Below, piece by piece: positions 3,372 through 50,612 of a stretch of 64,000 nucleotides of DNA. Below the pieces are notes generated by a model. The model did no database searches. It saw only the letters and a program-made list of their open reading frames with translations, and was not told where the DNA came from. The stretch lies in assembly GCA_039028935.1 (NCBI GenBank), contig JBCCHD010000010.1, forward strand, positions 62,001 to 126,000. The letters run 5' to 3'. Numbering within the stretch: the first letter of the stretch is position 1; every line of letters begins with the position of its first letter. The position numbers and the translations under genes are program-made. The DNA comes from Pseudomonadota bacterium (GTDB taxonomy: Bacteria; Pseudomonadota; Gammaproteobacteria; Steroidobacterales; SZUA-146).

Positions 3372-4177
3372 TGCAGCGCCTTGGTATCGACTTCGTGCAG
3401 CTCAATGTCAAAGACCAACGTGGAATTAGGCGGAATGGTATTGCCAAACCCACGCGCGCCGTAAGCCATACTCGGCGGAATGATGAGCGTACGCTTGCCG
3501 CCGGTTTTCATGCCGAGCACACCGACATCCCAGCCCGTAATCACCTGTTGCCGACCCAGCACAAAACCGAAGGGTTTGCCTCGATCGATCGAACTATCAA
3601 ATTGCTTGCCCTTGTTGCCCAAAGCGTCTGGATCAAACAGCCAGCCGGTGTAGTCTACGGATACTTTGGCGCCCTGGATCACCTCATCGCCTTCGCCGAT
3701 TTTTTGGTCGCGGCTTTCGATCGAGGCCGTTGCGAGCAATTCAATATCAAAAACCAGTGTGGCGTTGGGAGGAATGCGATTGCCCGCACCGCGCTTGCCG
3801 TACCCAAGCTCGGCAGGAATTATTAACCGACGCTTGCCGCCGACACGCATGCCCACGAGACCTTGGTCCCAACCCTTGATTACCCGACCCTGCCCAAGAA
3901 CCAATTCAAACGGGGTATTGCGCTCAACGGATGAGTCGAACTGCTCTCCGAGTAGATCGTCCGCGGTTTCGTCATAGAGCCAGCCGGTGTAGTGCACTGC
4001 GACGGCCGAACCCTCTTGCGCGGTGTCGCCCTCACCGACCACCTTATCTTCAATAACAAGCTCGCCCGTTGAGGCCGGTGCGACGGCGCTCGGACCGGTC
4101 GCGTCATCGCCTTGTCCGCAGCCGACCACACACAGCACCAACATCGCGATATACAGTATCTGTCGTTTTACGTTCAT
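3368..4177 (-). CDS. lipoprotein with two FKBP-type peptidyl-prolyl isomerase domains
   Basis: 269 aa from the ATG at 4177, chosen because a lipoprotein signal follows immediately (MNVKRQILY, then VLCVVGC with the lipobox Cys). An in-frame extension to 4279 lacks a signal sequence. Two tandem FKBP domains follow, residues about 40-150 and 155-268, each with VHYTGWL or [11 protein letters not shown], the G-WD-G motif, and a P-N-[AS]-TLVFDIEL end. FKBPs isomerise Xaa-Pro bonds and assist folding. Here the enzyme would be tethered in the periplasm. Two domains in one chain are less usual than one. The stop overlaps the amidohydrolase start (ATGA), which indicates an operon. Confidence 0.93.
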
Positions 4178-4370
4178 GATTTTTCCCGTGAAATGGATGA
4201 TGTAGAAATCGGATACAGCTTTGTCTGTGCGGTCTAGGCATGACAACCGCGAGCACGCTACGGCATCAGTCTCAAGCACGCGACGACTTTACACGCTGAA
4301 AGCGCTCGCTGCCGCTGAGCCTCGACGATTAACTTCATGGCCGAAAGACGGCTGCCCATGCACCGAACGA

Positions 4371-5000
4371 TTAGTCCATTCTCTGGCATAAGAGCTGCAT
4401 GACCGGCGCAAAGGCTGTGCCAGAGACCGACGTCGCGGCTTCGTAAGTCCATTGAAACTGGCGCGGTAGAATATTGTAGAACCGAATACGCACGGGGCGA
4501 TTGTCGCGTACCGAACTGAGCAGCATCTCATCGCCCGCCACGCCGCCGGACCACAATTCGAATGAGGCTTGCACCGTATTGGTCCACGATACGTTCCAGG
4601 TGCCGGTTTGCGCATTAAACACGCGTAAATTCGTGGCAATGCCTTCGGCGAGAAGGTCCTGACCCTCCGGCGTCCAGATGTCCTGAACGGCCAATCCATT
4701 CAGCGTATAGAAAAACGTCCAAAGAATGTCATCGGGTCGAGTCCGCCAGCTGCCATCTGGTCGACGTTCATTGACGCCACACCGCCAGCGTCCGGCAAAC
4801 CGTCCAAACTGATCCAGCTCCGGCGGCGCGCTAGTGTGCGGCTGGCCAAACGCGGCGACGGGCTTGGCCGGCGCCGTGGGCGGTGTCGGTTCTGATACAC
4901 ACGCCGTCAGGCACAGCATGAACAGCGCCAGAATGCCATAACCAAACGGTTGATCCCCTCTCGGTTCGCGCGGCAGCGTCGATATAGAGCGAAACATCAC
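4371..5000 (-). CDS. putative lipoprotein of unknown function
   Basis: 209 aa. After a long polar N-terminus, a hydrophobic stretch (about residues 22-34) ends in CLTAC, a lipobox. The mature part contains FGRFAGRWRCGVNERRPDGSW and repeated aromatic beta-strand patterns (WTFFYTLNGLAVQDIW, GTWNVSWTN). This resembles lipocalin-like or DUF1579-type domains that measure 'weight' of a bound ligand, but I cannot assign a family firmly. Its ATG lies 2 bp after the stop of the membrane-protein gene upstream, so it is the second gene of an operon. The annotated start is the first of two adjacent ATG codons. Confidence 0.7.
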   Translation of the reverse strand: MMFRSISTLPREPRGDQPFGYGILALFMLCLTACVSEPTPPTAPAKPVAAFGQPHTSAPPELDQFGRFAGRWRCGVNERRPDGSWRTRPDDILWTFFYTLNGLAVQDIWTPEGQDLLAEGIATNLRVFNAQTGTWNVSWTNTVQASFELWSGGVAGDEMLLSSVRDNRPVRIRFYNILPRQFQWTYEAATSVSGTAFAPVMQLLCQRMD

Positions 5001-5002
5001 GG

Positions 5003-5392
5003 TTAAATAAAATCGCTGCGGTATTCAAGCCGCATACAGCCGACGCCCGACGCGACTAGAGCCAGCGTGGCCAGCCAAGCGCCACTCAATGCCATAAACA
5101 AGCCCAAGATGACCAACGTGACACCAAGCAAATAGAGCGTGGGCCCAGGCACGATGTTGTGCGTCTGCCGGCGGGCCGCAGCGACTAGAAAATTGATGGC
5201 CACCATCACCAGACATAGCGCAACGACCCCACACAGCGCCCAAAAGACCCGGTCATGCGTACTGATTTCGAGCGCGGGTAACGAGTCAGACAATAGGCGA
5301 AACACGACCCAAAGCAATGCCGCCCCCCCACTGAGAAAGACCAGACCGGTCGCGCTCAGGCTCAGACGTAACCACATTGGTGCACGGTTCAT
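5003..5392 (-). CDS. small integral membrane protein, unknown function
   Basis: 129 aa from the ATG at 5392 (MNRAPMWLRL). An in-frame upstream extension to 5548 is Arg/Pro-rich, overlaps the next gene and is unlikely to be translated. Four hydrophobic segments can be seen at about residues 8-30, 42-66, 76-98 and 100-118, consistent with a polytopic inner-membrane protein. No catalytic motif is visible and no family is recognised. It is followed 2 bp later by a lipoprotein gene and preceded by a short lipoprotein gene, so it is part of a compact envelope gene set. Confidence 0.7.
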   Translation of the reverse strand: MNRAPMWLRLSLSATGLVFLSGGAALLWVVFRLLSDSLPALEISTHDRVFWALCGVVALCLVMVAINFLVAAARRQTHNIVPGPTLYLLGVTLVILGLFMALSGAWLATLALVASGVGCMRLEYRSDFI

Positions 5393-37488: not shown

Positions 37489-40400
37489 TTAATTGACCGT
37501 AATTCGAATAAATGGCCGCGCGTCAAAACCAAGCTCGGCCTCGGTACACACCGTTTCAGAGCGCTCGCTGTCGCAGTAGGCCGCCACGGCGACCGAACCG
37601 CTGTCCGTGCGCACCACTGGATACGCTTCCTGGCTTAATGATAAACCGTCGGCCACACCACCACCATTAATCCACGCGGTCATCAGGCCCGTTACGTCAA
37701 CCTCAACCCAAAGGCCTGAGTCTTCTTGCGTGTACGTGGCAAACGGGCCGACCGAATCGTTGACGTCCAGCCACTGCACGTCGCCACCCTCATCCCATGC
37801 CGTGTATTGCAAAAAGACATCGGTGAGCACCGTGGCATTTCCAGGTGTATGGGGATTGTCCATGTCCGCGTCGCCCGGGCATCCGCCGACAAAGCCACCG
37901 TTCTCACAGACGGAGTAAAGGTGAAGCGTCGCCGTATAGCTGCCAACCGGCAGATCACGTATCTGATCGTACAAGTCGCTGCCGAACGCAACGAGCCCTT
38001 TGCCACCGTGCACCGACTCATGATTCCACACTGAGATTCCGCCGCTGTCACCATCCGGCGATCCCTGATTACCCAAAAACTCGTACACGAAGGTGTCTTT
38101 CGTGGCGATCTGCTGCACCGACACGCGGATGGTTACGGTGGAATCGGCCGTGGCGCCGTCGGCATCCATCACTGTAAGACGCGCACTAAATTGACCCGCC
38201 GTTGTGTATGTGTGAGACACATTCTCGCCAACGACGGGCATCGACCCATCACCAAAATCCCACTCATAGCTCACTATGGAACCATCCGGGTCGCTGCTGT
38301 TCGAACCGGAAAACTCAACGGCAAGCGGTAACACGCCCGCATCCGTATCCGTTGTGATCGCCGCAAGCGGTAGCTGGTTAACCGGGTCCTCCACGACAAT
38401 TGTCACGGTATCTTGCGATGACTGATTGTTGGCATCGGTCACGGTGAGCTGGAACACATACTGTCCCATGCCAAGGGACACGACGGGCGATACTTCGTCC
38501 AACGGATCCGGATTACCACTCCACACGTAGCTGGTGATGTTGTTGTCGGCGTCCGTCGAGCCGGAACCATCGAGCTGCACAGAAACTTGGCCGCCCGCAC
38601 TCGTGAGCACGACCGTTTGGTCGGGGCCCGCGTTGGCAATCGGAGCTGGCCCGAGATCCGGCTGTTCAACAGTGATAACTATCTCTGCGGTAGCGGCAGC
38701 GGACGGTCCGCGCTCATCCGTAGCGGTTAGACGCACCGTGTAGTCGCCCGCGGTGGTAAAGGTGTGCACCACGTTCGCCCCTTGAGCCGACGATCCGTCG
38801 TCGAAGTCCCAAAGGAGCACAACGGCACCTTGGGCACCCATGATGTTGCTCGTAAAGGACACCGTAAGCGGCGCATCGCCACCCACTACATCACTCGAGA
38901 TTCCGGCTATCAGCGGCGGCGCAGCGACGGATATCGTCACGACCGCACTCGCCGACGCACCCTCGTTGTCGGTGACCGTAAGACGCGCAATGTAGTCACC
39001 GGCGCTCGCATAGGTGTGGCTTACCGTCACACCCGATGCGTCAGCCGAGCCATCGCCGAACTCCCAGACATAGCTGTCGATAGTGCCGTCGGCATCGCTG
39101 CTGCCTGCAGCCGAAAACTGCACGGTGAGCGGGCTTTGGCCACCCACGACATCCGTTTCGATGATCGCGAGTGGTAGCGAATTTGAAGGGGAGCGCACGG
39201 TGACGCTCACGGTGTCGCTGGACGACTGGCCGTTGGCATCGGTGACGGTGAGCTCAAACACATACTGCCCTTCACCCAGCACCACGGTTGGCATGGGCAC
39301 ATCATCCGGATCGGGCGTCCCGTTCCATACATAGCTGGCAATGTTATTGTCGCCGTCGCTTGAAGCCGATGCATCGAGCATTACGCTCATCTGCCCGCCC
39401 GGCGAGTCGAGAGTGAAATCAAGATCCGTCCCCGCATCAGCGATGGGAGCGGGGCCTAAATCCACTTGATCGACCGTAATAGTAACGGTGGCGGTGGCGG
39501 CAGACGACGGGCCGCGGTCGTCCGTTGCCGTTAACGTGGCTGTAAAAACGCCGATTTGCGTGTACGTATGTGTCACGGTCGCACCGCTCGCGCTGTTGCC
39601 GTCACCAAAGTCCCAGGTGTAGTCAACATCGCCTTGAGCGCCGCTGGTCGTGGCGTCAAACGTCACCTCAAGCGGGGCATCACCGCCGACCACATTCGAA
39701 TCGATGGCCGCGGTCAGAATAGGCGCCGCCACACTGATGGCTACAATATCGACGCTCATGGCGCCGTCCGCGTCCATCACGGTGAGTCGCGCGGCGTATT
39801 GTCCGGGTACCGTGTACACATGCGTCGCGTTTACGCCGTTGGCCGTTGCGCCATCGCCAAAGTCCCATGCAAAGTTCACCAGCGAGCCGTCCGGGTCGCT
39901 GCTTTGATCGCCAGAGAAATTGACACTAAGCGGCGCCGGTCCAGTCACCACATCGGCGATAGCAACAGCATCCGGCAACTGGTTGTCGGGCGCGCGCACC
40001 GTGATCGTCACGGTGTCCTGCGACGACTGACCGTTAGCGTCGGTCACCGTCAGCGTGAACATATACATGCCTTCGCCAAGCACAACCGTCGGCTGGGCTT
40101 CAGCGAGCGGCAACGGCTCACCGCTCCATACATAGCTGGCGATGTTGTTGTCGTCATCCATCGAGGCCGTGCCGTCAAGCTGCACCATCACCTGTCCGCC
40201 GCGTTCCTCGAGTAGGATATCCTGATCCGCTCCTGCGTTGGCCACAGGCACCGGTCCCAAATCGGGCGCGTTGACCTGAATAAAGACCTCGCTCGTCGCC
40301 CCACCGGCGGCACCGCGTTCGTCGGTCGCGGTCACACTCACCGTGTAACCACCGGCGTCATTAAATGTATGCGCAACGGCCTGTCCCGTCGCAGTACCGC

Positions 40401-41370
40401 CATCACCGAAATTCCAGGTATACGTTGTCGAGCCGATCGCGCCCGACGACTCGGCAGAAAAATTCACCAACAAAGGCGCGCTACCGGAAATCACATCGGC
40501 GCTGGCGCTCACACCGAGCTGCTGAGCCCCCGGTGGCGGCAAGACAAAGTCTTCGTCGGCTGCGGGCGTGTAGTGAAACGCGATATTGCCTGATTCTGCG
40601 CTGCCCTCTGGCAGGCCGTAGTAGCCCAACATTTCAAAGGCAAATTTCACCCCTTCTGAGCTATTGATCACCCAAATATCGCCGGAAGGTCGCAGTAAAT
40701 GATTCTCATCGGGGTAATAATCGTACCAACCGAGGATCGCCTCGCCAGGCGTCCCGTCGGCTTCGAACACCACACCACTGCCGAGCGTCAAAAACGCAAA
40801 CGCGGCGGTGTTTAAATCAAGTCGGTTACGGTTAACAACGTCATTGGCCAAACAGTAATTGTCGGCATCACGATCATCGAAGCCCTGCTGACAGACAGAA
40901 AAAAAGAGATTCCCGCCGAGGCGGAGAATCTCTTCGTCGCTTAAGTCAAGCAAACTCCGATCAGGAAGGAACTGGATCTCGGGCGAAGTGATGACGTCCA
41001 GAAGCCCTCCCTCTCGACTAACAGCCGCTGTAACCTGACCGTTACCGCTGACGCCGCTATTTATTTTTATTTTGAATCGTTGAAATGCAATGTCCCATGA
41101 ATTGTCTGCGTAGGGGTCCTCGGGCGACACCACTGCAAACCGATCAAGGTCAAAATACACCCATTTATCGTTATCCGTTGCGTTAAGCTTTTGCGTGCCT
41201 ACTCCGTTAGACAGCGAAGCGTTTTCAATTGCTACCTCCTGACTGGAAGGATCACCACCGTCCGTGGCGATGAATTCGTTTTCCAGTTCAGACTCTTTAC
41301 ACCCACTCGCCGTCATCAATACGACGAGCAGTATTCCTGAGGCGAACCTCAGACGTCCTTTCCTATCCAT
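37489..41370 (-). CDS. giant lipoprotein: HmuY-like heme-binding domain, nine PKD domains and a DNRLRE-like domain
   Basis: 1293 aa from the ATG at 41370; a TTG at 41382 is possible, and residue numbers here count from it. A lipobox ends LMTASGC at residue 28. Residues about 50-275 match HmuY (WVYFDLD, WDIAFQRFKIKINSGVSGNG, DIWVIN), with His228 and His270 as candidate heme ligands. Residues 287-1088 are nine PKD domains in three super-repeats. Residues 1091-1297 are a DNRLRE-like domain (YEFLGNQG, WNHESVHGG, FVGGCPGD, QEAYPVVRTDSGSVAV). It should sit on the cell surface and pass heme to the receptor encoded next. The fusion is the most unusual protein in the window. HmuY assignment is by motif; no structure was computed. 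Confidence 0.85.
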   Translation of the reverse strand: MDRKGRLRFASGILLVVLMTASGCKESELENEFIATDGGDPSSQEVAIENASLSNGVGTQKLNATDNDKWVYFDLDRFAVVSPEDPYADNSWDIAFQRFKIKINSGVSGNGQVTAAVSREGGLLDVITSPEIQFLPDRSLLDLSDEEILRLGGNLFFSVCQQGFDDRDADNYCLANDVVNRNRLDLNTAAFAFLTLGSGVVFEADGTPGEAILGWYDYYPDENHLLRPSGDIWVINSSEGVKFAFEMLGYYGLPEGSAESGNIAFHYTPAADEDFVLPPPGAQQLGVSASADVISGSAPLLVNFSAESSGAIGSTTYTWNFGDGGTATGQAVAHTFNDAGGYTVSVTATDERGAAGGATSEVFIQVNAPDLGPVPVANAGADQDILLEERGGQVMVQLDGTASMDDDNNIASYVWSGEPLPLAEAQPTVVLGEGMYMFTLTVTDANGQSSQDTVTITVRAPDNQLPDAVAIADVVTGPAPLSVNFSGDQSSDPDGSLVNFAWDFGDGATANGVNATHVYTVPGQYAARLTVMDADGAMSVDIVAISVAAPILTAAIDSNVVGGDAPLEVTFDATTSGAQGDVDYTWDFGDGNSASGATVTHTYTQIGVFTATLTATDDRGPSSAATATVTITVDQVDLGPAPIADAGTDLDFTLDSPGGQMSVMLDASASSDGDNNIASYVWNGTPDPDDVPMPTVVLGEGQYVFELTVTDANGQSSSDTVSVTVRSPSNSLPLAIIETDVVGGQSPLTVQFSAAGSSDADGTIDSYVWEFGDGSADASGVTVSHTYASAGDYIARLTVTDNEGASASAVVTISVAAPPLIAGISSDVVGGDAPLTVSFTSNIMGAQGAVVLLWDFDDGSSAQGANVVHTFTTAGDYTVRLTATDERGPSAAATAEIVITVEQPDLGPAPIANAGPDQTVVLTSAGGQVSVQLDGSGSTDADNNITSYVWSGNPDPLDEVSPVVSLGMGQYVFQLTVTDANNQSSQDTVTIVVEDPVNQLPLAAITTDTDAGVLPLAVEFSGSNSSDPDGSIVSYEWDFGDGSMPVVGENVSHTYTTAGQFSARLTVMDADGATADSTVTIRVSVQQIATKDTFVYEFLGNQGSPDGDSGGISVWNHESVHGGKGLVAFGSDLYDQIRDLPVGSYTATLHLYSVCENGGFVGGCPGDADMDNPHTPGNATVLTDVFLQYTAWDEGGDVQWLDVNDSVGPFATYTQEDSGLWVEVDVTGLMTAWINGGGVADGLSLSQEAYPVVRTDSGSVAVAAYCDSERSETVCTEAELGFDARPFIRITVN
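38119..40524 (-). repeat. triplicated ~267-aa super-repeat of three PKD domains each
   Basis: Three tandem units of about 801-804 bp encode an A-B-C order of PKD domains. Matching motifs sit at a constant distance: the A-type W-[ND]-F-x-DG motif starts at residues 321, 588 and 856, YVW[SN]G at 417, 684 and 952, and the C-type WxFGDG at 504, 771 and 1039. The period of 267-268 residues points to duplication of a three-domain block. Confidence 0.9.
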
Positions 41371-41413
41371 TTGCGTACGCAAACCGATCTACCGACAACC
41401 AATCCGCGACGAA

Positions 41414-42166
41414 CTAGTCGCGAGCTTTGCGTCGGCGCATCACACCGAGCGATCCAAGCGCGGTGGCAAACAACCACACCGCTGCTGGGACCGGCACGGG
41501 TGTCGCATTAATTTCCAAATAAGGCGTAAAGCCGGTGCCCGAGCAAAATTCACTGCTGAGCTCCGAATCGCAAAACGCCGATACCGCCACCGATCCCTCA
41601 TCGGTTCGGATTACCGGATACGCTTCCTGGCTCAGTACGAAGCCAAAATCGACACCGGTATCGAGTATTACCTGGATCAGCGACGTGACGTCGATGCTGA
41701 TCCAGCCGTCGGCACCGCTTTGTGAAAAGCTCACACTCGTGCCAGCGTTGTCCAGTTCACCCCATGACAACGAGCCATCTGCTTCGTCCCACACGCTGCG
41801 CTGAATCACCACATCGGTGGTAGTCGTTTCAGCGCCCGGATCACCGGGACATCCCCCAACAAAACCACCCGAGGAACAGTACGCGTATAAGTTCAGCGTC
41901 GCGGTAAATGGCCCAGCTAATGCCGCGTCCATCATCCAGGTGGGATCGAATTGAATCAGTGCCTGGCCACCATGAATGCTCTCGTGGTTCCAGATCAAAA
42001 GACCACCGCTCTCACCTGAACCGCCGCCCTGGTTGCCCAGGAACTCATACAGATAGGTGTCTTGTGTGGCGTCGTATGTACCCGCCATGACCGGACCACA
42101 CAGTCCGACTGCCGCCAGAATAAAACTGGAAAACAGCGCTTGTCGCATTTTGCTTGTTTTCGTCAT
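41414..42166 (-). CDS. sorted surface protein with DNRLRE-like domain, paralogue of the giant lipoprotein's C-terminal domain
   Basis: 250 aa from the ATG at 42166, with GGGAGAG 6 bp upstream; a long in-frame extension to 42298 crosses the Fur site. A signal peptide ends near PVMAG. Residues about 30-215 are a DNRLRE-like fold sharing YLYEFLGNQGG, WNHESIHGG, GGFVGGCPGDP, QEAYPVIRTDEGSVAV and FCDSE with the giant lipoprotein and with the protein at 44229. Four conserved Cys suggest two disulfides. The C-terminus is a VPVPAAVWLFATAL helix with RRRK at the end, a PEP-CTERM/VPLPA-type sorting tail. First gene of the heme-receptor operon. Confidence 0.85.
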   Translation of the reverse strand: MTKTSKMRQALFSSFILAAVGLCGPVMAGTYDATQDTYLYEFLGNQGGGSGESGGLLIWNHESIHGGQALIQFDPTWMMDAALAGPFTATLNLYAYCSSGGFVGGCPGDPGAETTTTDVVIQRSVWDEADGSLSWGELDNAGTSVSFSQSGADGWISIDVTSLIQVILDTGVDFGFVLSQEAYPVIRTDEGSVAVSAFCDSELSSEFCSGTGFTPYLEINATPVPVPAAVWLFATALGSLGVMRRRKARD

Positions 42167-42226
42167 GGCATCTCTCCCATCGATTTCCCGATGTTGATTG
42201 TACTCTAAACTCATTTTTTGCAAATG

Positions 42227-42245
42227 TAAATGATAATTATTCGTA
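42227..42245. promoter_or_regulatory. Fur-box-like site of the heme-receptor operon
   Basis: The core AATGATAATTATTCGT (42229-42244) fits the Fur consensus GATAATGATAATCATTATC in most positions. It lies 63 bp upstream of the ATG at 42166 on the minus strand. Confidence 0.7.
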
Positions 42246-42331
42246 TTTCGAAACTTTTTTCGGTTCGCACCGTTCCCTGTGCCCGCCAAACAACGCATTA
42301 CCGTTGCTCAACGTCCCCGCTCATCATTACG

Positions 42332-43264
42332 TTAAGCGGCATGTGACGTTTTCTGAGCCGACCGGCCCGTCCACGCCCAGCCACCGAGCGCACTGAGCAA
42401 GAGCCAGAATGCAGCGGGCACCGGCACCGGCACCGTCTCCCAGCCAATGTCGTTAAGCCCAGCATAATCGAGTGCGGTCATTAGCTGACGCTCACCTGCA
42501 GGGGTACTGGGATCCATTAGCGTTTCTTGAAACTCGCCCGCCACCTCGCTGAACAACCCTTCCAGCCAATGTGCGCTGTTTTCCAGTGGCACAGGACCAC
42601 CAAACAAGGCCATGGATGCCGCGCCCTCGAATTGAAGCGTGCCGTCCGGTCCTGTAACGATTTGCGAAAACCACGAATCGGCCGAGCCAAAGCCAAAGAT
42701 GTGGGCGATCTCATGCACGGCTGTCGTGAGAAAGTCGTGCTGATTCGCGCCAAGCCCATCGGCGGATTCACCGAAGTACCACTCTTTGTCGCTGTTGACG
42801 CTGATCACGCCACCCCACACTCCGTAGTCGGTGGCCGTAGCGCCCAGCGCGTTTTGCTGCCCCCGGGTGAACAGCGACGCCTCGAATTCGTCGCTGCCGT
42901 CGATATCAAACAGCGTGCCGGTTGAGCCAAAGCCCAGCACGCTCGGCCCCATGCTCGCACCGCCGACAAATATGCGCAGCGTATCGGCGGCCACCTCCTG
43001 GTCGGTCAGTACTTCCAGCATGCCAAGGTTGGAGGGATTATTAATAATCACACTCCAAGTATCGCCAGCCTCGGGGGAGATCGTTGTTAACGAATCGGTG
43101 AAGAACGTGAAAAACGAAGCGGCCTGCTCCAACCGAGCACGTCGTGCCGGGTCATCAAAAAACCCATTGTCATAGCGATAGTCAAATTCGATCGTGATCG
43201 CGTGTGACGTCGCGGCGCCACTGCACAGCAATAGGCCTATAACAATCAAGCCGACTTTACGCAT
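42332..43264 (-). CDS. secreted zinc metalloprotease-like protein with VPxPA sorting tail
   Basis: 310 aa from the ATG at 43264, with GGGAG 8 bp upstream; a GTG nine bases further up is weaker. A signal peptide ends near ATSHA. The zinc motif is in TTAVHEIAHIFGFGSADSWF (about residue 155 on). HExxHxxG is clear, but the 11th position is Ser instead of the His or Asp expected in metzincins, so the third ligand lies elsewhere. The C-terminus is a VPVPVPAAFWLL sorting helix. This looks like the NF038122 metalloprotease group, a name from memory. A role in releasing heme from host or environmental proteins is speculation. No own promoter is obvious, because a terminator precedes it. Confidence 0.8.
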   Translation of the reverse strand: MRKVGLIVIGLLLCSGAATSHAITIEFDYRYDNGFFDDPARRARLEQAASFFTFFTDSLTTISPEAGDTWSVIINNPSNLGMLEVLTDQEVAADTLRIFVGGASMGPSVLGFGSTGTLFDIDGSDEFEASLFTRGQQNALGATATDYGVWGGVISVNSDKEWYFGESADGLGANQHDFLTTAVHEIAHIFGFGSADSWFSQIVTGPDGTLQFEGAASMALFGGPVPLENSAHWLEGLFSEVAGEFQETLMDPSTPAGERQLMTALDYAGLNDIGWETVPVPVPAAFWLLLSALGGWAWTGRSAQKTSHAA

Positions 43265-43284
43265 GTTCTGCACTCCCTTGAGCC

Positions 43285-43320
43285 AAAAAACCGGGCGCAG
43301 CCACGCTGCACCCGGTTTTT
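43285..43320 (-). terminator. terminator between two sorted surface-protein genes
   Basis: On the minus strand a stem of CCGGG and GCAG, with one mismatch (C-A), and a 5-nt loop is followed by TTTTTT. It lies just past the gene at 43340. Plus-strand T-run also present, so it is bidirectional in form. Confidence 0.8.
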
Positions 43321-43339
43321 ATTTCGATGTCGCTTTGTG

Positions 43340-43993
43340 TTATCGGCGACGCGCAACCAATCCCAACAGAGCCGAACCCAACAGCCAGATGGCCGCCGGC
43401 ACCGGGACGGGCGTTGCTTCGATTTGCAGTACGGGCATCATGCCGCCAGTTGCAATCGAAGAGTAAAAGTAATTATTGAATGTGCCGTTACCCGCACCGC
43501 GCGCAGTAATGGCGAAGCCATTAGACGAACTCGGATCGGCAACCCACGATGCAACCAGTGACGTCAGATCCCAGGTATAGACGCCCGGAGTCGACGCCAC
43601 GACGGTATCCACAACCGACCCGATGCTGCTCATCAGCACGGCAGCGCCGGCTGCGTCGGTCACAGTTTCCACATCAATGCCCACCTCGTTGACCGAAATG
43701 TCCATGAAGCTACCCGCTGAGTCGCCCGTGCAGGTTAGCCCTGGGTTGCAGTACATCTCCATTACGAGTGTGGCGCTGGTGATGGTCTGTCCGGCAAGGC
43801 TGCTGACGTCGAAGTCCATAAAGGCAACCGATTCAAAGGCTGCACCCGCACCTGGGTTGTTGACGATCAGTCGGTCGTTGTCGCTAAACCCACCCGCGAA
43901 CGAATAAAAATCGACGGTTGGCGACAAAGACGTGGCGCCCGCGTGGACACCCATCAGCATGAAAGCGGCTAAAGCCAGAATCCCTTTTTTCAT
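43340..43993 (-). CDS. sorted surface protein with DNRLRE-like domain
   Basis: 217 aa from the ATG at 43993, with GGGGAG 6 bp upstream; an in-frame extension to 44149 crosses the Fur site. A signal peptide ends near VHAGA. The body has the DNRLRE pattern (VAFMDFDVSSLAGQTITSAT, then TWDLTSLVASWVADPSSSNG) but lacks the EFLGNQG and WNHE signatures of the closer paralogues. The tail is PVPVPAAIWLLGSALLGLVA with RRR, a PEP-CTERM/VPLPA-type sorting signal. A Fur-box-like site lies 106 bp upstream. The function is unknown; expression in low iron is inferred. Confidence 0.82.
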   Translation of the reverse strand: MKKGILALAAFMLMGVHAGATSLSPTVDFYSFAGGFSDNDRLIVNNPGAGAAFESVAFMDFDVSSLAGQTITSATLVMEMYCNPGLTCTGDSAGSFMDISVNEVGIDVETVTDAAGAAVLMSSIGSVVDTVVASTPGVYTWDLTSLVASWVADPSSSNGFAITARGAGNGTFNNYFYSSIATGGMMPVLQIEATPVPVPAAIWLLGSALLGLVARRR

Positions 43994-44098
43994 TGTTACT
44001 CCCCAATTCGCGGTCACAATTCCGCGTTTTTCATTATCTACTGCACGCCGTGTCGACGCGGTTTTGAGGCTGAAAAGCATCCCACACTCCCAACTGAA

Positions 44099-44117
44099 AT
44101 GCAAATCATTCTCATTT
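44099..44117. promoter_or_regulatory. Fur-box-like site upstream of the gene at 43340
   Basis: On the minus strand AATGAGAATGATTTGCATT agrees well with Fur consensus half-sites. It lies 106 bp before the ATG at 43993. Confidence 0.65.
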
Positions 44118-44160
44118 AGATTATGGGTAAAATTCGTTACCTTCCCCACCAGGGGTGAAC

Positions 44161-44198
44161 GAAAAACACCACACGCAGAGCATGTGGCGTTTTTTTAA
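44161..44198 (-). terminator. terminator downstream of the gene at 44229
   Basis: CACCACA pairs with TGTGGCG across a short loop (one mismatch). On the minus strand TTTTTC follows. It is 31 bp past the stop codon and the plus-strand side also carries a T-run. Confidence 0.65.
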
Positions 44199-44228
44199 GT
44201 CAGCGGCCATCCGGCCGCCAACCTCTCC

Positions 44229-45206
44229 CTAAAGAGTGTATCCCGCCGGTTGGTCGGCCACACAGTCACCGGCCGGCCCACTTGGACCAGGCGGGTTAAA
44301 GAACTGGCTACTGAGGATGCTCAGATCCACGAAGTTAACCGAACCATCGCCGTTGAAGTCAGCGTCGGCATCGTCCGTCAGGAACACGCCGCTGAACTGA
44401 CTCAGGTCGAGGAAGTTCACAATGCAATCGTTGTTGATGTCCGCATCACACGCGTTACCAAAACCATCCCCATTGCTGTCCAACTGGTTGCCGTTGGCAA
44501 GATCGATACAGTTGTCGCTCGCATCCGCCACGCCGTCGGAATCGCTATCCGCTACCGCGACGATCTCAAGATAGGGACGTAGGTCGCTCGTCGCGCAGGG
44601 CCCGATGCTCGACTCCGAATCACAGAACACCGACACGGCGACGGAGCCGGAATCGGCTCGCATCACTGGGTACTGCTCTTGTGTAATCGATAGGCCAAAA
44701 TCAACGGTGCCGCTCGCCCAGACTTCCACTAGTGACGTAACATCGATGCTCAACCACCCTGACGCGGTGGTTTGTTCGAACGTCACACTGGGTCCGGTCT
44801 GACTGATCGTGGACCACGCGAGGGTTGGGTCATTCTCCGACCAGTCGGCAGACTGAAGCACCACATCGGTCATGATGCTCTCGACCCCTGGGTCGCCTGC
44901 ACACGCGCCCACAAAGCCGCCCGGCGTACAGGCCGAATACACGTGAAGAATCGCCACGTAGTCACCGCTCAACGCGGCGTCGTTGACCCAATTGGCATCG
45001 AAGCGCAATAAGGTTTGTGCGCCGTGTACCGTTTCGTGGTTCCACACCAACATACCTTCACTGTCTCCGGTGCCGGCACCCTGGTTACCCAAAAACTCAT
45101 AAATATAGGTATCTTCGACTACGTCCCAGATATCCGCCTGGGCGGAGACCGGTACCAACAGTGACACCGCGGCCAGAAGCAGGCCACATCGTTTGCTCAC
45201 GCTCAT
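44229..45206 (-). CDS. secreted DNRLRE-like protein with TSP3/dockerin-like C-terminal repeats
   Basis: 325 aa from the third of three consecutive ATG codons (45206), with GGGAG 7 bp upstream. A signal peptide ends near SAQA. Residues about 25-215 are a close paralogue of the giant lipoprotein's last domain (YIYEFLGNQGAG, WNHETVHGA, GGFVGACAGDP, QEQYPVMRADSGSVAV, FCDSE). Residues about 220-320 carry calcium-type repeats (DSDSDGVADASDNC, DSNGDGFGNACDADINND, DFNGDGSVNFVDLSILSS), the same type as in the PQQ sugar dehydrogenase at 11936. No sorting tail is present. A Fur-box-like site lies 73 bp upstream. Confidence 0.85.
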   Translation of the reverse strand: MSVSKRCGLLLAAVSLLVPVSAQADIWDVVEDTYIYEFLGNQGAGTGDSEGMLVWNHETVHGAQTLLRFDANWVNDAALSGDYVAILHVYSACTPGGFVGACAGDPGVESIMTDVVLQSADWSENDPTLAWSTISQTGPSVTFEQTTASGWLSIDVTSLVEVWASGTVDFGLSITQEQYPVMRADSGSVAVSVFCDSESSIGPCATSDLRPYLEIVAVADSDSDGVADASDNCIDLANGNQLDSNGDGFGNACDADINNDCIVNFLDLSQFSGVFLTDDADADFNGDGSVNFVDLSILSSQFFNPPGPSGPAGDCVADQPAGYTL

Positions 45207-45278
45207 CATCATTCTCCCGTCGTGCGGTGCACCCGCATCGTTTATGAGACGAAGCATAACCATCCGACAGCGACTTAG

Positions 45279-45298
45279 CAATGAGAATCATTACTATT
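45279..45298. promoter_or_regulatory. Fur-box-like site upstream of the gene at 44229
   Basis: AATGAGAATCATTACTATT at 45280-45298 contains the palindromic core AATGAgAATCATT. It lies 73 bp before the ATG at 45206. Confidence 0.75.
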
Positions 45299-45502: not shown

Positions 45503-45949
45503 TTAATGGAGTGCGGCGACGGGCGTTAGCTGGCTGGGCAGCTCCTTGATGAAGGCCTCAATTTCGTCACGCACCTCACGGTAGTGCACCATCGCCTCCG
45601 CGTCAGAGCTTGCGTCGAGCGCCATGGTAGGTGGGTCATTAAATCCCACGTGGAGTTTTCTGATCGGTCCGGTTAACACAGGACAGGTTTGATCCGCATG
45701 CCCACATACCGTGACGACCACGTCCGGACGCCCCTGCACTTCATCAAGTGTTTTGCTTTGGTGGTCGGAGATATCGATGCCCGAATCGCGCATGGCTTGA
45801 ACAGCACGTTCGTTGAGTCCGTGTTTTTCAATACCGGCGGACAGCACGGTGTATCGGTCGCCCCAATAATGTCGCGCGAAGCCTTCCGCCATTTGACTGC
45901 GGCATGAGTTGCCCGTGCACAGAAATAACACCGTTTTCTTTCGACTCAT
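45503..45949 (-). CDS. arsC: arsenate reductase, LMW-phosphatase/thioredoxin-linked type
   Basis: 148 aa. The P-loop CTGNSCRS at residues 11-18 carries the nucleophilic Cys. The relay pair is in VCGHAD (Cys about 82) and QTCPVLTG (Cys about 88). This is the thioredoxin-coupled ArsC fold, which reduces arsenate to arsenite. No arsenite exporter is present beside it. The nearest arsenic-type regulator is an ArsR gene at 50.2 kb, separated by unrelated genes. Arsenite released by ArsC would need another exporter. Confidence 0.93.
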   Translation of the reverse strand: MSRKKTVLFLCTGNSCRSQMAEGFARHYWGDRYTVLSAGIEKHGLNERAVQAMRDSGIDISDHQSKTLDEVQGRPDVVVTVCGHADQTCPVLTGPIRKLHVGFNDPPTMALDASSDAEAMVHYREVRDEIEAFIKELPSQLTPVAALH

Positions 45950-50103: not shown

Positions 50104-50199
50104 TTAACAGCAGCACGAATCCTTACAGCAGCTGCAGCTCTTCTCTTTGCAACATTCTTTCGATTTACACTCGCATTGGCACTTTTTTTCGTCCGTCAT
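50104..50199 (-). CDS. 31-residue Cys-rich metallothionein-like peptide
   Basis: 31 aa, with 11 Cys. The ATG at 50199 has GGAG 8 bp upstream. The peptide starts MTDEKKCQCECKSKECC and ends CSCCKDSCCC, so Cys come as CxCxC, CC and CCC, spaced by Lys, Glu and Ser. This composition is that of a soft-metal or arsenite binding peptide; no bacterial metallothionein family (SmtA, BmtA) matches by layout that I can recall. It begins 19 bp after the stop of the ArsR gene, so the two are one operon with an ArsR-type operator. Too short to be found by most gene callers. Confidence 0.75.
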   Translation of the reverse strand: MTDEKKCQCECKSKECCKEKSCSCCKDSCCC

Positions 50200-50218
50200 T
50201 TTCGTCTCCGGTTTTGCG

Positions 50219-50515
50219 TTAGGCTGGCGCATCGTCGATGTAATCCGCCAAGGATCTGAGTTTGTTGGCAAGGTCGGAGCGATTGAGGGAATACATGCGT
50301 TCCCGGCCCTTTTTCTCGACCTGAACCACACCTTCTTGTGCCAACGCCTTGAGATGTCGCGATGCGACCGAGGAGTCGACACTGCAGCACTCGCACAGGC
50401 ACATGGCGTTTTGGGGTAAGTCGCACTGACAAAGCTCGCAGACCAACGACAGACGGTTAAATTCGCCCAAGGTCTTTAATAAACTCGCCAATTCGTTTCG
50501 TTCGGTACTCGTCAT
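50219..50515 (-). CDS. ArsR/SmtB-family metalloregulator
   Basis: 98 aa from the ATG at 50515. A winged-helix repressor: FNRLSLVCELCQCDLPQNAM is followed by CLCECCSVDSSVASRHLKAL (recognition helix) and the wing VVQVEKKGRERMYSLN. The C29-Q-C31 pair matches the ELCxCDL arsenite site of classical ArsR. There are seven Cys in total (26, 29, 31, 39, 41, 43, 44), which is more than usual, so the ligand may be As(III) or another soft metal. A longer in-frame start at 50578 crosses the palindromic operator and is unlikely. Autoregulation is inferred. Confidence 0.9.
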   Translation of the reverse strand: MTSTERNELASLLKTLGEFNRLSLVCELCQCDLPQNAMCLCECCSVDSSVASRHLKALAQEGVVQVEKKGRERMYSLNRSDLANKLRSLADYIDDAPA

Positions 50516-50529
50516 GGGCTGATATTTGC

Positions 50530-50545
50530 ATATTTGCGCAAATAT
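50530..50545. promoter_or_regulatory. ArsR-type operator, perfect 16-bp palindrome
   Basis: ATATTTGCGCAAATAT is a perfect palindrome 14 bp upstream of the arsR ATG, within AT-rich flanks. It looks like an ArsR/SmtB operator and should mediate repression of arsR and the Cys-rich peptide gene. Confidence 0.75.
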
Positions 50546-50612
50546 AGCAATACGGATTTCAGTAATCGGGCCGATCAATCAACCGAGCAGGAGTGAAAAT
50601 GAAATAAGGCGC

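Follow-up and report, generated by a model that had tools for sequence, protein, structure and literature searches.

A very short metallothionein-like peptide family paired with a Cys-cluster ArsR-type repressor

Organisation of the locus

The locus consists of two genes on the minus strand of the window (the whole 64-kb stretch of DNA analysed): arsR, which encodes a repressor of the ArsR/SmtB family, and, 19 bp downstream of it, a gene for a small Cys-rich peptide, MTDEKKCQCECKSKECCKEKSCSCCKDSCCC (Table 1). Translation bears out the sequence-only reading of this region, in which the peptide was described as 31 residues long with 11 cysteines (35% Cys) and the adjacent repressor as containing seven cysteines (C26, C29, C31, C39, C41, C43 and C44). 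The peptide contains neither histidine nor aromatic residues, and its small size, high Cys content and conserved CxC and CC motifs place it within the compositional definition of a metallothionein. No other ORF of 25–60 residues in the window reaches 30% Cys, and 20 block-shuffled windows contained none.

The 16-bp perfect palindrome reported earlier upstream of arsR is indeed present (ATATTTGCGCAAATAT, 50530–50545) and has no other match in the window, even when three mismatches are allowed. Its proposed role as the operator stands in part: the palindrome is the core, and the first part, of a longer conserved element of 24 bp, ATATTTGC-N8-GCAAATAT, and is not the whole operator.

Table 1. Features of the arsR–peptide locus
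Feature	Position	Strand	Basis
ArsR/SmtB-family repressor, 98 aa, Cys cluster LCQC...AMCLCECC	50219..50515	minus	NF033788, PDB profile matches, AF2 model
31-aa, 11-Cys metallothionein-like peptide ("type I")	50104..50199	minus	Translation, homologues, Cys conservation
Shine-Dalgarno-like GGAG of the peptide gene	50206..50209	minus	CCGGAGACGAAA-ATG
Putative operator ATATTTGC-GCAAATAT-GCAAATAT, inverted repeat with N8 spacer	50522..50545	minus	Conserved upstream of arsR in relatives
Candidate -35 box TTGCTA (TTGACA in many relatives)	50545..50550	minus	Consensus only
Putative -10-like AAATAT, 6 nt ahead of arsR ATG	50522..50527	minus	6-nt distance same in most relatives

Conservation and coding status of the peptide

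A scan of contigs with the window ArsR yielded 14 homologues (63–78% identity) from MAGs or genomes labelled as Gammaproteobacteria, Nitrospinaceae, Myxococcales/Deltaproteobacteria, Calditrichia, Bacteriovoracaceae and cyanobacteria, and in all 14 a Cys-rich peptide follows arsR immediately. Genome searches added more, and the type I loci comprise 21 close ArsR homologues in genomes labelled as six phyla, most of which are MAGs whose labels may include binning errors. The peptide is encoded directly downstream in 20 of these 21 loci. The search for short Cys-rich ORFs after arsR, which had been suggested for relatives of this genome, was therefore successful; the reading frame, whose lack of conservation was to count against the proposal, is conserved, and the core of the earlier interpretation, a minimal operon of a repressor and a metal-buffering peptide, holds. 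In one cyanobacterium (G720; L061/L089), ArsR and its operator are intact and no peptide was found in the genome, apparently as a result of loss.

Of the 18 type I peptides examined, 17 contain exactly 11 cysteines in 30–37 residues and the remaining one contains 15, and the alignment contains ten invariant Cys positions and an eleventh, C17, which is kept in 15 of 16 sequences. In the conserved Cys columns the codons alternate between TGC and TGT only, apart from a single Cys to Gly replacement, and the codons next to them vary freely. The distance between arsR and the peptide gene lies between −11 and +46 bp, and in several loci the two genes overlap at ATGA. A Shine-Dalgarno-like motif precedes the peptide in 18/18 loci examined. 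Because the variation of the Cys codons is synonymous and a ribosome-binding motif accompanies every copy, the peptide gene is, judged from these sequence constraints, almost certainly translated. A short peptide of biased composition does invite the suspicion that a meaningless Cys-rich frame, of a kind that can arise randomly, happens to lie next to a chance palindrome. We find this hardly credible, as it is refuted by conservation across phyla, synonymous drift of the Cys codons, the presence of the Shine-Dalgarno-like motif in all copies and the empty shuffled windows.

The window peptide and its relatives have no match in Pfam or NCBIfam, save for chance matches to PF05624 (best E 0.15), and do not match the profile of prokaryotic metallothioneins SmtA/PmtA (PF02069). 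Searches of the open-access literature with sequence strings and keywords returned no paper describing the peptide. The earlier statement that no bacterial metallothionein of such a layout is known is thus supported with respect to Pfam, NCBIfam and the open-access literature. An ORF this short is likely to escape gene finders.

The system is rare: it was found in one of 274 genomes sampled across the class and, as strong matches, in four of 296 sampled across the order. The peptide occurs at one locus per genome (17 carrier genomes). Phage and viral contigs contained no homologue, and plasmids contained only generic ArsRs with 32–36% identity. In a phylogenetic tree, copies from Gammaproteobacteria, cyanobacteria and myxobacteria tend to cluster with others of their own lineage, with modest support. 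Such a scarce and scattered distribution suggests that the system has repeatedly been transferred or lost.

The sensor protein

The window ArsR matches NF033788 with an E-value of 1.3e-13 and 50.6 bits, just below the cut-off of 55, and this model is matched by 16/16 of the ArsR homologues. Its profile matches the structures of CadC, CzrA, SmtB and Lmo1102. The AlphaFold2 (AF2) model contains the winged-helix elements at a pLDDT of only 64, and the top Foldseek matches of this moderately confident model have the ArsR/SmtB fold but are weak. The sensor belongs to the ArsR/SmtB superfamily.

Four of the cysteines (C29, C39, C41 and C44) are invariant among the homologues, and C31 and C43 are nearly so. 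The α5 zinc ligands of SmtB and CzrA are absent, as the helix of this family, VAERLRKLADKIE, aligns with no histidine opposite AIHHAN of CzrA. The N-terminal cysteines of the CadC type are also missing from the family, and the α3 CxC is present. All-Cys sites are known for the sensing of As, Cd, Pb and Cu, and the all-Cys site of this ArsR may likewise hold a soft or borderline metal. The AF2 model was not used to place this site because of its overall pLDDT and poor modelling of the Cys segment (residues 24–42, confidence below 50).

The Cys arrangement has a bearing on the proposal that the same cassette is dedicated to arsenite (or antimonite), in which ArsR would respond to As(III) and the peptide would sequester it, with no efflux pump. 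The CxC..C-type cysteines in the α3 region do resemble those of As(III)-responsive ArsRs, and C39, C41 and C44 have the spacing of the CxCxxC motif of R773 ArsR. However, the register differs from that of R773 ArsR, since the linker that leads to the recognition helix is shorter by three residues, and an ungapped alignment of the recognition helices shifts the cysteines by three. Matching MCLCECC to CVCDLC of R773 ArsR takes a gap of three residues, and this alignment was given less weight for that reason. For two distant ArsR relatives (E about 1e-16), the adjoining sequence was named by eye: in L066 the ArsR shares a reading frame with an arsenite-methyltransferase-like domain, which would suit an arsenic function, and in L067 a corrinoid-protein-like (HgcA-like) frame follows the ArsR.

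Promoter, operator and extent of the regulon

The -35 box and the -10-like element are 17 bp apart, and the operator fills the spacer. The upstream regions align as TTGACA-TATTTGCGCAAATATGC-AAATAT, and in most loci the ATG of arsR comes 6 nt later. The -10-like element lies so close to the start codon that there is no room for a leader, which implies a leaderless transcript, and arsR probably has a leaderless start. A perfect 12+12 palindrome centre was also sought, and the inverted repeat with the N8 spacer describes the site better. The N8 form is common to distant Bdellovibrionota loci as well.

The pattern TATTTGYRCAAATANGCAAATA was searched in 19 whole carrier genomes, with the reversed pattern as a control. 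All sites with zero or one mismatch are located at this arsR, and so are all sites with two mismatches except one (in G575), which is probably due to chance. Away from arsR, three-mismatch sites are roughly as scarce as those of the control. Strong operator sites being confined to this arsR, with no exporter or other gene sharing one, the regulon appears to be this two-gene operon alone, as far as binding sites can be read from sequence. The search covers strong copies of the operator, and exporters under weaker or different sites or under other regulators are outside its reach. Within these bounds, the earlier description of the operon as lacking an exporter is strengthened.

The Bdellovibrionota variant

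Bdellovibrionota encode a related ArsR with the motif CC-x-[IV]D-x-S-[VG]VSRHL and the same type of operator. A Cys-rich head follows arsR in about 15 of 16 of these loci and in most cases continues into a tail, for example VAKFLRHLAEFFDKK. Such tailed peptides were recorded in L092–L107, and L070 and L071 are examples that lie downstream of arsR. In sequence, this tail is similar to the C-terminal helix of the ArsR encoded beside it, with a score that is reached by 0–6 of 2,000 shuffles in five pairs that are related to each other; the similarity is short and may be a convergence of amphipathic helices.

The tail could be a copy of the C-terminal dimerisation helix of ArsR, and chelator and repressor would then form one device. 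The Bdellovibrionota peptide would dock onto ArsR through the tail, take metal from it or hand metal to it with the Cys head, and so reset the switch directly, with type I being a stripped-down form. We consider this scheme a long shot. A broader proposal is that the peptide is mainly a partner of the repressor (for metal delivery or anti-repression), or a sponge for redox or sulfane-sulfur species, rather than a buffer. Its near-strict one-to-one pairing with ArsR and the ArsR-like tail agree with a partner role, and the sulfur variant has a parallel in BigR/SqrR, which are ArsR-fold sensors of sulfur species. On the other hand, the type I peptides carry no tail or other docking segment, and the tail itself may be convergent, so that this explanation is quite improbable.

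Genomic neighbourhood and identity of the metal

The proteins that flank 24 loci were compared with each other, with no prior list of candidates. The recurrent neighbours are a cluster of COG0523 GTPases (six loci), HisI (three loci) and what we take, from its sequence, to be a HupE-like protein (three loci). COG0523 and HisI paralogues sit in the Zur regulons of many bacteria. PF02492 genes, counted in 19 carrier genomes, served as a measure of COG0523. Such a gene lies within 25 kb of the pair in 9 of 19 loci, where 0.6 would be expected (P about 1e-9, in a test that takes related lineages as independent), and within 3 kb in four loci, with an expectation of 0.07. The L035 protein scores above the NCBIfam cut-off for the zinc metallochaperone ZigA and the L043 protein falls 2 bits short of it, and those of L041 and L044 are nearer to other COG0523 models. 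There is no COG0523 gene near the pair in the window. Genes for short-chain dehydrogenases and FAD oxidoreductases, and thrS, also lie close to loci; this association was considered and set aside as unproven.

Genes of the arsC family are found near two of the 19 loci, the window and L038. In the window, a thioredoxin-type arsenate reductase family gene is located about 4.2 kb from the pair (45503–45949, minus strand), and the ORF list has no arsenite exporter beside it. In L038, arsC adjoins an aquaporin-family channel gene (4108–5306, minus strand) that is convergent with the arsR–peptide pair, an arrangement that resembles an arsenate reductase/aquaglyceroporin detoxification pair. The window also encodes, at 37489–45281 (minus strand), a run of secreted proteins, several of which have PEP-CTERM/VPxP-type C-termini and some of which share a repeated YEFLGNQG...CDSE domain.

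Both arsC genes agree with a cassette dedicated to arsenite, yet they represent only two of 19 loci, and the recurrent neighbours are COG0523/ZigA and not arsenic genes. Arsenite sequestration, which was part of the earlier interpretation, is thus unsupported as the first choice, and we regard it as unlikely. A third proposal is a buffer for copper(I) or silver(I), in which the ArsR would sense Cu(I) like BxmR and the peptide would form Cu(I)-thiolate clusters. Short all-Cys peptides without histidine suit such clusters, and there is a precedent in BxmR, a member of the ArsR/SmtB family that, as cited in PMC9337993 and PMC12193353, regulates a metallothionein and is responsive to both Cu/Ag and Zn/Cd. 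No copper genes recur among the flanks of the loci compared, however, and the COG0523 association would be left without explanation, which makes this proposal rather improbable. The enrichment of COG0523/ZigA genes is the reason why zinc or cadmium is preferred to arsenite. Points against it are that the sensor does not have the α5 zinc ligands of SmtB and CzrA, and that the pair in the window has an arsC-family gene in its vicinity and no COG0523 gene. We favour zinc/cadmium, to which we give an even chance of being the main metal, followed by arsenite and then copper.

A proposed metal-responsive cassette

The pair is likely a self-contained, autoregulated and metal-inducible metallothionein cassette with SmtB/SmtA-like logic. 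Built on the gene anatomy, the coding constraint, the conserved pairing and the conserved operator that is unique in each genome, we infer the following course of repression, metal binding and release. The metal-free ArsR dimer would occupy the operator between the -35 and -10 elements and block transcription. Rising concentrations of thiol-loving ions, for which Zn(II) and Cd(II) are the best guess and other soft ions are possible, would be bound by C29, C31, C39, C41, C43 and C44 and cause ArsR to leave the operator. One short transcript would then give ArsR, probably from a leaderless start, and the 31-residue peptide from its own ribosome site. The 11 cysteines of the peptide would bind the ions in one thiolate cluster, predicted from the agreement of the Cys number with an M4Cys11 domain to hold four divalent ions, and the ensuing fall in cytosolic metal would allow ArsR to repress again.

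If this is true, small intracellular metal buffers have been overlooked since gene callers skip such short frames. Here, a family of peptides of 31 residues with its own repressor occurs in bacteria that are only very distantly related and has no entry in the annotation libraries searched, and the ArsR motif and the operator offer a handle for finding further members.

Comparison with known systems

The pair is most similar in outline to SmtB/SmtA of Synechococcus PCC 7942, BxmR/BmtA and AzuR/NmtA, in which a repressor of the ArsR/SmtB fold likewise accompanies a small chelator rich in cysteine. A further likeness to these cyanobacterial pairs is the operator, which is an AT-rich inverted repeat and lies at the promoter. 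Unlike smtA, which is divergent from smtB (PMC8790569), the peptide gene is co-directional with arsR, and arsR comes first. The sensor lacks the α5 zinc ligands of SmtB. In contrast to SmtA, the peptide has about 31 residues, 11 cysteines, no PF02069 match and no histidine, whereas bacterial metallothioneins commonly have His ligands (PMC10612145). BmtA of marine Synechococcus, a metallothionein linked to zinc homeostasis and activated by Zur (PMC9337993), is a classical bacterial metallothionein without an adjacent ArsR control of its own. The α-domain of mammalian metallothionein, M4Cys11 (PMC9093145), has the same size (about 31 residues) and Cys number (11), but its Cys spacing differs and there is no homology, so that the comparison is one of analogy only.

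The likeness to R773-type ArsR and ars operons comprises the ArsR fold, CxC-type cysteines near the recognition helix and probable autoregulation. The present sensor differs from R773 ArsR in its extra LCxC and CC cysteines and in the spacing to the recognition helix, and the operon differs in having no arsB/acr3, with no second strong operator in the genome. CadC, a Cd/Pb/Bi sensor, is among the best PDB profile matches and has the α3 CxC in common with this family. CadC, for its part, relies on the N-terminal Cys7/Cys11 and controls an efflux ATPase, and the present system has a counterpart of neither.

To our knowledge, the bacterial metallothioneins described so far are small in number, and most have about 50 residues or more. 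By the sequence features compared (α5 site, PF02069 and gene order), the pair would work in the manner of SmtB/SmtA without being a member of that group; its very short peptides form a new metallothionein-like family that has a Cys-cluster ArsR of its own.
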